The notes under the pieces are model-generated. The model saw only the letters and a program-made list of their open reading frames with translations, had not been told where the DNA came from and did not search any database. From Chitinophagaceae bacterium (GTDB taxonomy: Bacteria; Bacteroidota; Bacteroidia; Chitinophagales; Chitinophagaceae): a DNA stretch of 14,641 nucleotides. This document shows positions 13,529-14,641 of this stretch, piece after piece. Each line of letters starts with the position of its first letter. The stretch's first letter is position 1. The translations under genes and the position numbers were made by a program. The stretch is from NCBI GenBank assembly GCA_025963615.1, contig JAOQAL010000545.1, positions 1 to 14,641 on the forward strand, written 5' to 3'.

Positions 13529-13601
13529 ATCGTGCAGCAATTTGAACAGAAAGTTAGTGAATCCTGCATTTAAAGCTGCTTACAACTTTAAATAGAATTT
13601 T

Positions 13602-13632
13602 TTTGTGACTTTCAAATAACCTGTTATTTTTG
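13602..13632 (+). promoter_or_regulatory. Histidine operon promoter
   Basis: TTTG at 13602-13605, a 19-base spacer, and TATTTTTG at 13625-13632: an exact match to the Bacteroidota -33/-7 consensus and the best promoter in the window. Transcription should start near 13636, only about six bases before the leader peptide ATG. Confidence 0.85.
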
Positions 13633-13641
13633 CGCCACATT

Positions 13642-13692
13642 ATGAAACAAAACATACACATCCATCATCATCATACTTACCCTCTAAGGTAG
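13642..13692 (+). CDS. hisL: Histidine operon leader peptide
   Basis: This is a 16-codon frame, MKQNIHIHHHHTYPLR, ending at TAG 13690-13692. Five of its residues are histidine: one CAC at 13657 and four consecutive CAT codons at 13663-13674. Its job would be to sense charged tRNA-His: a ribosome waiting at the CAT run uncovers or covers RNA segments that decide whether the downstream terminator forms. The name is by analogy with enterobacterial hisL; there is no sequence homology beyond the His run. It is placed between a perfect promoter and a terminator just before hisG, which makes chance very unlikely. The start ATG is almost at the predicted 5' end, with no Shine-Dalgarno site. Confidence 0.88.
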   Translation: MKQNIHIHHHHTYPLR

Positions 13693-13762
13693 GCCGGTGA
13701 TGTTTTGTGTATAATAGCATAAAAAGATTGGGGCTTACTAGAAAGTAGGCCTTTTTTATTTT
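13647..13762 (+). promoter_or_regulatory. Histidine transcription attenuator
   Basis: Four segments can be drawn. Segment 1 (CTTACC, 13676-13681, directly after the His codons) pairs with segment 2 (GGTAGG, 13688-13693). Segment 2 (GGTAGGCC, 13688-13695) can instead pair with segment 3 (GGCTTACT, 13732-13739), the antiterminator. Segment 3 pairs with segment 4 (AGTAGGCC, 13744-13751), the terminator. An outer stem, ACAAAACAT (13647-13655) with ATGTTTTGT (13700-13708), supports the 1:2 form. A ribosome stalled on CAT codons would cover segment 1, favour 2:3 and allow read-through when histidine is scarce. Pairings were found by eye; the regulation is inferred from the classical his/trp mechanism. 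Confidence 0.85.
13732..13762 (+). terminator. Attenuator terminator before hisG
   Basis: GGCTTACT (13732-13739) and AGTAGGCC (13744-13751) form an 8-bp stem with one G-U pair and loop AGAA, followed by TTTTTTATTTT. It lies about 100 bp before hisG and inside its own leader, as expected for a conditional terminator. Confidence 0.85.
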
Positions 13763-13794
13763 GTACCGGCACAGCATTGCGCTAGGGAACTTCC

Positions 13795-13813
13795 GGTCCG
13801 CCACCGGCGGACC
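13795..13813. repeat. GC-rich perfect hairpin in the hisG leader
   Basis: GGTCCGCC (13795-13802) and GGCGGACC (13806-13813) form a perfect 8-bp stem with a 3-base loop (ACC). No T-tract follows. It lies after the attenuator terminator and 50 bp before hisG, so it would be present only in read-through mRNA. It could be a REP-like intergenic palindrome or an mRNA-stability or translation element. Confidence 0.5.
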
Positions 13814-13863
13814 CTTTAACGGTTCGTTCTTTATTCAGCAAGGAGTGCCTTAAATTAAAAGCG

Positions 13864-14641
13864 ATGGAGAAACTTAGGATAGCGATTCAGAAATCAGGCC
13901 GTCTGTACGAAGATTCGGTCAAACTGTTGAACGAATGCGGCATTGATTTACGGAATGTAAAAGACAGGTTGAGAACCGAATCAGATAATTTCCCCCTTGA
14001 AATTTTCTTCCTCCGCGATGATGATATTCCCCAGTATGTAGAGGATGGTGTAGCGGACATTGGAATTGTTGGTGAAAATGTATTGTTTGAAAAGAATAAA
14101 CAGGTTGATGTGGCCGAAGAACTGGGTTTTGGTAAATGCCGGCTGGCGATAGCCATTCCCCGCAGCCAGCAATATGAGGGAATAAAATCTTTAAAAGGGA
14201 AACGAATAGCTACAAGTTACCCGTTTCTGGTAACCAATTACCTAAAGCAATATAATATTGAAGCAGATATCCATGAAATCAGTGGTTCGGTAGAAATTGC
14301 TCCGGGTATTGGCCTCGCGGATGTTGTGGCGGATCTGGTCAGTAGCGGATCTACCTTATTTATGAATGGACTAAAGGAAGTAGAAATCATCCTGCAATCG
14401 CAGGCGGTATTGATAAAAAACAAAAAACTGAATGATAAGCAGCTGCAGCTGCTGGATAAATTAATATTCCGTTTCCGCGCCGTAAAGAAAGCGAAGCGCA
14501 ATAAATACGTATTAATGAATGCGCCCAATGAAAATCTTGAGAAGATTATTTCGTTGTTGCCGGGAATGAAAAGCCCTTCCGTGCTGCCATTAGCCGAAAG
14601 CGGGTGGAGTAGTGTTCACAGCGTATTGAGTGAAGATGAAT
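13864..14641 (+). CDS. hisG: ATP phosphoribosyltransferase, long form (partial)
   Basis: This enzyme performs the first and controlling step of histidine synthesis, joining ATP and PRPP to give phosphoribosyl-ATP. The frame is open from ATG 13864 to the right edge, 259 codons, without its stop. It starts KLRIAIQKSGRL, typical of HisG. Further signatures are GVADIGIVGENV (about 63-74), KGKRIATSYP (about 111-120) and the PRPP-binding stretch GSVEIAPGIGLADVVADLVSSGSTL (about 141-165). The sequence goes on past 210 into the C-terminal ACT-like regulatory domain (KYVLMNAPNENLEKIISLLPG, then SPSVLPL), so this is the long form, which binds histidine as feedback inhibitor and does not need HisZ. About 25 residues are probably missing. 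It is preceded by a His leader peptide and attenuator and is presumably the first gene of a his operon continuing beyond the window. No well-placed Shine-Dalgarno site is seen. Confidence 0.96.
   Translation, partial: MEKLRIAIQKSGRLYEDSVKLLNECGIDLRNVKDRLRTESDNFPLEIFFLRDDDIPQYVEDGVADIGIVGENVLFEKNKQVDVAEELGFGKCRLAIAIPRSQQYEGIKSLKGKRIATSYPFLVTNYLKQYNIEADIHEISGSVEIAPGIGLADVVADLVSSGSTLFMNGLKEVEIILQSQAVLIKNKKLNDKQLQLLDKLIFRFRAVKKAKRNKYVLMNAPNENLEKIISLLPGMKSPSVLPLAESGWSSVHSVLSEDE

Follow-up and report, generated by a model that had tools for sequence, protein, structure and literature searches.

Anatomy and occurrence of a probable histidine leader-peptide attenuator upstream of hisG in Bacteroidota

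The window, that is, the whole stretch of 14,641 nt analysed from a Chitinophagaceae bacterium, ends in a hisG gene preceded by a short His-rich open reading frame and a hairpin, and the question is whether the gene is controlled through translation of this leader. The evidence presented below makes it very likely that the element is a ribosome-mediated transcription attenuator of the his operon. The parts of the element and hisG lie on the forward strand.

The promoter consists of TTTG at 13602–13605 (−33 element) and TATTTTTG at 13625–13632 (−7 element), separated by a spacer of 19 nt. Judged by its sequence, it agrees with the consensus given for the Bacteroidota primary sigma factor, with TTTG at about −33 and TAnnTTTG at −7 (quoted in PMC7366714). 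The TAnnTTTG box is placed at −12 to −5 from the start site in PMC9723704, and a start at 13637, with a 5′ UTR of about 5 nt, is predicted for the window. The leader ORF of 16 codons, MKQNIHIHHHHTYPLR, occupies 13642–13692, from the ATG at 13642 to the TAG stop codon at 13690–13692. Its His control codons (CAC ATC CAT CAT CAT CAT, 13657–13674) include five His: CAC at 13657–13659 stands apart from the run of four CAT codons at 13663–13674.

Two words occur twice in this region, GTAGGCC at 13689–13695 and 13745–13751, and CTTAC at 13676–13680 and 13734–13738. Segment 1, CTTACC (13676–13681), lies inside a 5′ (attenuating) hairpin at 13654–13712, for which folding gave the arms 13654–13660/13706–13712, 13666–13672/13696–13702 and 13676–13681/13688–13693. 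Segment 2, GGTAGGCC (13688–13695), is the antiterminator 5′ arm by folding and alignment, and holds the leader stop codon. It is followed by an inner antiterminator stem at 13703–13724 (13703–13710/13717–13724, from folding). Segment 3, GGCTTACT (13732–13739), is seen in sequence, folding and alignment to serve both as the antiterminator 3′ arm and as part of the terminator 5′ arm, while segment 4, GTAGGCC (13745–13751), lies in the 3′ arm of the terminator. The intrinsic terminator itself, found by folding and by terminator search, spans 13730–13762, with a stem of 13730–13739/13744–13753 and a T-run from 13752.

The gene at 13864–14640 was identified as hisG (ATP phosphoribosyltransferase) by TIGR00070 (198 bits) and TIGR03455, both above cut-off, and is incomplete, being cut off by the contig end. 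The terminator lies about 110 nt ahead of it. Between the two, at 13795–13813, there is a perfect 8-bp inverted repeat, GGTCCGCC-ACC-GGCGGACC, whose 3′ part overlaps a terminator-like site at 13806–13828 given by the terminator search. At a locus of the same genus (L002), hisG is followed by a hisD-like ORF, recognized by eye, and then by hisC (TIGR01141), which suggests a his operon with the element at its head.

The initial annotation had described the promoter, the 16-codon leader, the repeated words and the terminator, and all of them were found in the window sequence exactly at the positions given. The four consecutive His codons are present as claimed, the fifth His standing separately, and the three stems all form in folds, the antiterminator in an RNA that lacks the 5′ part and stops after segment 3. 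It had further stated that everything lies within 160 bp of hisG; the elements are where it placed them, and the distance needs correction, since the leader ATG is 222 nt from the hisG ATG.

The minimum-energy fold of the full window leader contains the 1:2 hairpin, with the His codons inside it, and the terminator (−37 kcal/mol, z −4.66, not equalled by any of 200 shuffles). When the 5′ part was removed and the RNA was ended just after segment 3, the 2:3 antiterminator was obtained, with 8 bp plus the inner stem and −18.5 kcal/mol. Once the 3′ part is complete, the minimum fold keeps the terminator whether or not the 5′ part is present. Therefore, the switch must be kinetic, and the equilibrium fold alone does not show it. 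In known attenuators the order of synthesis matters. Judged as an attenuator, the locus thus has tandem codons of the pathway amino acid in a short upstream ORF (an HIHHHH leader before hisG) and an intrinsic terminator between the leader and the first structural gene (13730–13762); an antiterminator that a stalled ribosome would free is present as pairing potential only, the complete-RNA equilibrium not favouring it.

The course of events that we infer, from the start site through leader translation and stalling to termination and the histidine response, is as follows. Transcription would start about 5 nt before the His-rich ORF of 16 codons, which would be translated as it emerges. With plentiful histidine, the ribosome would pass the His codons and reach the stop inside segment 2, thereby covering segment 2; the 3:4 terminator would then form and the RNA would end near 13757–13762. 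With scarce histidyl-tRNA, the ribosome would stall at 13663–13674 and cover segment 1, leaving segment 2 free to pair with segment 3 before segment 4 is made, so that the terminator would be blocked and hisG and the downstream genes transcribed. If there is no translation, the 1:2 hairpin would form and termination would be the default.

Conservation was studied in the same family. HisG was found in 112 of 147 Chitinophagaceae genomes, and after leaving out the upstream regions of G101 and G033, 110 loci remained. Under a looser rule (a cluster of at least three His in seven residues, up to 500 nt upstream of hisG), 103 of the 110 have a His-rich leader. Among the seven without one in that range, the DNA ahead of hisG is limited to 2 nt in L031 and 123 nt in L052, L035 and L042 carry a leader about 600 nt upstream of hisG, and no leader was found upstream of hisG in L131, L133 and L134. 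A strict rule (a short ORF of up to 60 aa with at least four His in seven residues, up to 500 nt upstream) was passed by 93 of the 110 regions, by none on the reverse strand and by 0–3 in 20 rounds of dinucleotide shuffles; the residue ranking next under the same rule was Leu, with 23 of 110. With a somewhat stricter His rule (ATG starts, ORFs of at most 45 aa), other genes of the relatives gave 0/25 for asd, 0/24 for lysA, 0/13 for leuA and 0/13 for trpE-like genes. A chance His run is excluded by the shuffles, the reverse strand and these other-gene controls.

Three consecutive His are found in 97 of the 103 family leaders, with both CAT and CAC used, and the residues flanking the run vary while the His persist. 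Such a pattern would be expected of codons that are read. Behind 102 of the 103 leaders there is a strong intrinsic terminator (shuffles: mean 2.7, maximum 5), and TAnnTTTG is present within 20 nt upstream of the leader start at 92 of the 103 loci, compared with 5.4% of random positions. The initial annotation was to be abandoned if the His run or the stems were not conserved in relatives; the result came out opposite, with both conserved in nearly all of those in the family.

The antiterminator was followed in per-sequence folds at 100 of the 102 terminator loci, repeated sequences and segments containing N having been dropped. Of these 100 leaders, 96 have the terminator in their minimum fold, and 95 show downstream pairing of the His codons. 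When a model ribosome was placed on the middle His codon and the RNA was cut directly behind segment 3, the 2:3 helix was obtained in 98; with that block kept and the RNA complete, 83 retain the terminator in the minimum-energy fold. The distance from the last His codon to segment 2 is near-constant, mostly placing segment 2 at 5 nt past the modelled ribosome edge. In 67 of 99 family leaders, the segment 2 core word (GTAAGC, GTAGGC or GTGAGC) starts one base before the leader stop, so that the antiterminator includes the stop codon; in the remaining ones, the stop lies before or after the core word. Segment 3 can pair upstream at 99 of 102 family loci against 48.3 expected, a test whose high background gives it less weight than the pairing counts in the alignment.

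Alignment A1 comprised 95 of the 100 folded leaders; three outside 95–135 nt were left out, as were L132 and L135, which have a leader and a terminator with other words. Consensus folding of the whole leader yielded only the terminator, in which 7 of 10 pairs changed on both sides, and the antiterminator pairing was thus counted on the named structure and per sequence. In the 2:3 helix, 96.7% of cells are paired over the 95 sequences, and 3 of 8 pairs changed on both sides. For the whole antiterminator, 78.1% of cells are paired, compared with 29–46% for a slid partner and, barely lower, 76.8% in shuffles. Its covariation score of 0.181 is above all 500 shuffles (mean 0.158), while pairs with double-sided change (8, shuffled 7.4; 234/500) and pair types (32, shuffled 30.6; 155/500) are no more numerous than in the shuffles. 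The inner stems are weakly conserved, with 44.1% and 62.5% of cells paired. In many family leaders, a ATAAAACATT-like word before segment 3 can pair with TGTTTTGT after segment 2; in the alternative state, the His codons take TGTTTTGT as their partner, and this inner stem (13703–13724 in the window) is unevenly conserved in A1. The parts of the element, their conservation and their pairing potential are in this way read directly from the sequences.

The short distance between promoter and leader start is also a family trait. Taking the first in-frame start after the box, a promoter box was assigned to 95 of 104 family leaders, and the predicted UTR is 0–6 nt in 73 of these 95, exactly 0 in 20, never below 0 and never 7–9 nt. 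Taking instead the ATG nearest to the His run, 60 of 103 family leaders have a predicted UTR of 0–6 nt. Most family leaders are therefore predicted, from box and start codon positions, to be nearly leaderless. Outside the family, 0–6 nt was predicted for only 22 of 46 boxed leaders (8/8 in family f21, 1/9 in f5), and a phylum-wide rule of nearly leaderless starts was given up. For comparison, about 3.7% of 5′ UTRs in Bacteroides are shorter than 10 nt (PMC7366714), and leaderless mRNAs are put at 5.5% in PMC9723704.

Occurrence beyond the family was evaluated in two samples. The strict rule accepts 17 of 25 titled loci, and under the looser one a leader is found at 22; those with a leader include Cesiribacter, Fulvivirga, Psychroflexus, a MAG named Chryseobacterium gleum, a Saprospiraceae bacterium and Bacteroidales. 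The titled locus L002 is the same DNA as the family locus L027. The three titled loci without a leader are L012, with 142 nt upstream, L019, with a run of N, and L026, whose HisG has 36% identity. The phylum sample comprised 148 genomes, 128 of them with a detected HisG; 89 loci were handled and 86 upstream regions were counted, L136, L139 and L162 being left out of the phylum count for their orientation and other phylum HisG matches likewise standing outside it. A His leader is present in 49 of 64 regions outside the family with HisG of at least 43% identity (50 of 66 with L137 and L138, which repeat family genomes), and in 0 of 20 regions upstream of a distant HisG (26–38% identity). Families f12, f16 and f23 together gave 0 of 6 within 500 nt upstream of hisG. 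These six loci (L142–L144, L146, L214 and L217) have hisG of 43–63% identity without a His leader, and they may possibly represent losses.

The segment words follow the lineage, with CTTACC in the family of the window, CCCGTTTGA in f5, GGTTTGCAG in Bacteroidales and AAGCCCCATCGG as a further variant in other families. Outside the family set, upstream pairing of segment 3 is possible at 39 of 50 loci (21.2 expected), a result to be read with the same reserve as the family count. The presence in many families argues for an old element in the phylum and is silent on a still older common origin. Acquisition from Enterobacteria was considered and found unsupported, words and leaders being lineage-typical.

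Family f21 differs in its 3′ part. All 12 of its loci (L207–L213, L216, L218, L219, L223 and L224) have His leaders, mostly with a GTG start, and no strong U-tailed terminator was found in any of them with loops of up to 20 nt searched. The start codon is exactly at the predicted transcription start in 7 of the 12, and the His codons run to near the leader stop. The opening 8 nt of the leader are able to pair with a stretch beyond the stop codon in L207, L212 and L219; across f21, this pairing is strong in 3 of 12 (1 of 200 shuffles as good), and in most it is not. Some His leaders of f3, f8, f9 and f19 also lack a strong U-tailed terminator, and one whose loop measures 14 nt is present in L215 (f19). 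The read-out may therefore not be uniform in the phylum, and in f21 it may be Rho or translation.

These leaders are what can be said for an attenuator in the window that works through translation or Rho rather than through an intrinsic-terminator switch, since they suggest that other read-outs may exist in the phylum. The window, however, has a strong U-tailed terminator, as have all but one of the 103 family leaders, and we regard such a read-out here as improbable. A terminator-based attenuator therefore stays the preferred reading of the window element.

Related leaders were found at other amino-acid genes. When 60 family genomes were searched with a covariance model of the leader, 56 gave a match (E up to 0.001); 42 genomes have one upstream of hisG with E ≤ 4.5e-12, many of these sequences being in the model. 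Of the 41 weaker matches not at hisG, 20 were examined: 10 precede asd, 4 a class I/II aminotransferase gene, 1 lysA and 5 nothing evident (the asd, lysA and one of the aminotransferase assignments were checked). The asd, lysA and aminotransferase leaders are Lys-rich (KHTKRTKK, IKTIKTKK). By the 4-of-7 rule, Lys stands out in no more than 1 of 25 asd regions and 2 of 24 lysA regions, so it is the patterned leaders that carry the lysine reading.

At asd, KHTKRTKK-type leaders with a GGCCTTCC/GGAAGGCC-like terminator were observed (L166, L167, L169, L170, L173, L175–L178, L181 and L245–L261). A scan of 17 asd regions showed the Lys pattern in 10, one of these being a 7-residue ORF and probably spurious. 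Their sequence makes it possible that the asd leaders are lysine-responsive leader-peptide attenuators; we know of no leader-peptide attenuator with lysine as the control amino acid. At lysA, one of 24 loci, L184 (same site as L280), has an IKTIKTKK leader, and Lys-rich leaders stand before a class I/II aminotransferase of uncertain substrate at L165, L168, L172 and L183.

The trpE-like genes (L365–L377), strong matches below the curated cut-off of the model, were found with WWW in the leader at 11 of 13 loci, WW in L375 and neither in L366, and with strong terminators at 12 of the 13. The genome of the window itself (G000, locus L376, contig C122) has the Trp leader MNQKITNKLWWWHTSSSGVL before a trpE-like gene. 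The trpE-like leader is a probable Trp attenuator. Before leuA, no leader was found at 13 loci by promoter and terminator criteria. Trp and Lys leaders at other genes lend support to the view that the his element is one of a set.

The Trp leaders bear on a second alternative, in which the His-rich peptide is itself the product, for example a small metal-binding protein, the hairpin being only its terminator and the link to hisG incidental. Leader and own terminator would indeed make a complete small transcription unit, and short His-rich peptides can bind metals. Nevertheless, the residues around the His run vary while the His stay, segment 2 repeats a terminator arm and pairs with segment 3, neither of which a plain terminator needs, the leader is upstream of hisG at nearly all family loci, and a Trp-rich leader occupies the same place at trpE-like genes. 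This alternative is accordingly very improbable, and attenuation by the translating ribosome remains the preferred reading.

More widely, Bacteroidota may have their own suite of amino-acid leader-peptide attenuators. It would be marked by interchangeable word pairs, by nearly or fully leaderless RNAs in the family of the window and in f21, by lysine-sensing leaders at asd, lysA and aminotransferase genes, and by the f21 His leader, with GTG predicted as the first transcribed codon in 7 of 12 and its lack of a strong terminator suggesting Rho or translation. This broader proposal is advanced tentatively, as it falls somewhat short of an even chance.

Rfam families were searched in the window, and none, T-box included, reached its gathering score. 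In 13560–13880, at E up to 10, five weak matches were obtained; His_leader is not among them, the best is Phe_leader (21.3 bits against a cut-off of 55) and Thr_leader also appears. Attenuators of the same design are thus included among the weak matches, which were counted in favour of attenuation. A known RNA family was excluded by this search. Control of hisG by a protein- or metabolite-binding RNA (a T-box, a riboswitch or the target of an RNA-binding repressor), with the ORF left untranslated, is barely credible: no point in its favour was found, the gathering score was attained by no Rfam family, and the coding character of the leader is conserved, with three His in a row written in both CAT and CAC.

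The attenuator reading places a textbook mechanism in Bacteroidota, where it is widespread and not an oddity, and it likely controls the his operons of many members of the phylum. Promoters and translation signals of Bacteroidota differ from those of most other bacteria (PMC9723704). The roughly 100 aligned leaders of one family provide a basis for the missing RNA family. They also raise the point that a nearly leaderless leader start may synchronise ribosome and polymerase in the family of the window.

Among the closest known systems is the enterobacterial hisL, which has a His-codon leader before hisG and mutually exclusive pause, antiterminator and terminator hairpins; its Rfam entry is His_leader, RF00514. 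The leader of His codons upstream of hisG and the three mutually exclusive hairpins are the same here, whereas the predicted UTR of about 5 nt, the stop inside segment 2, the Bacteroidota-type promoter and the lack of an Rfam match are different. The enterobacterial architecture proposed in the initial annotation thus stands as to its logic, and homology to that family was undetected with the Rfam model.

A 2010 comparative survey (Lopatovskaya and others, cited in PMC4833913) may have predicted some his attenuators in Bacteroidota. Our literature searches found no paper devoted to his attenuators in this phylum. In the part of PMC8305728 drawn on here, which concerns the his genes of the superphylum, attenuation is mentioned for enterobacteria only. 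In Firmicutes, his attenuators are described for the Bacillus cereus group, five Eubacteriales and six Erysipelotrichales species (PMC9413887). They share with the present element 3–5 His codons in a row, a short leader, an antiterminator and a terminator; they belong to another phylum, and the string 'bacteroid' is absent from the main text of that paper.

The nearest report is on Flavobacterium psychrophilum, in which structured 5′ elements before hisG and pheA, conserved in Flavobacteriaceae, have no Rfam match, and whose authors note strong indications that amino-acid operons are preceded by leader-peptide attenuators (PMC9723704). The phylum, the gene and the missing Rfam match are the same; as far as the relevant parts of that report extend, it differs in giving no hisG-specific mechanism, no anatomy and no range beyond Flavobacteriaceae (PMC9723704). 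The doubt of the initial annotation about earlier description in the phylum was justified, this one partial report having been found (PMC9723704).

A leader outside the his genes offers a further parallel. The trpL leader of Sinorhizobium meliloti starts leaderless, and it resembles the present element as an attenuator leader peptide on a leaderless RNA, with Trp as its amino acid, Alphaproteobacteria as its group and another promoter type as differences. This trpL is a subject of PMC7298713. By mechanism, the element of the window is a his attenuator, outside Rfam His_leader as far as the model can tell; such an element was known in part from one family, and what is new here is its anatomy and its wide occurrence in the phylum.
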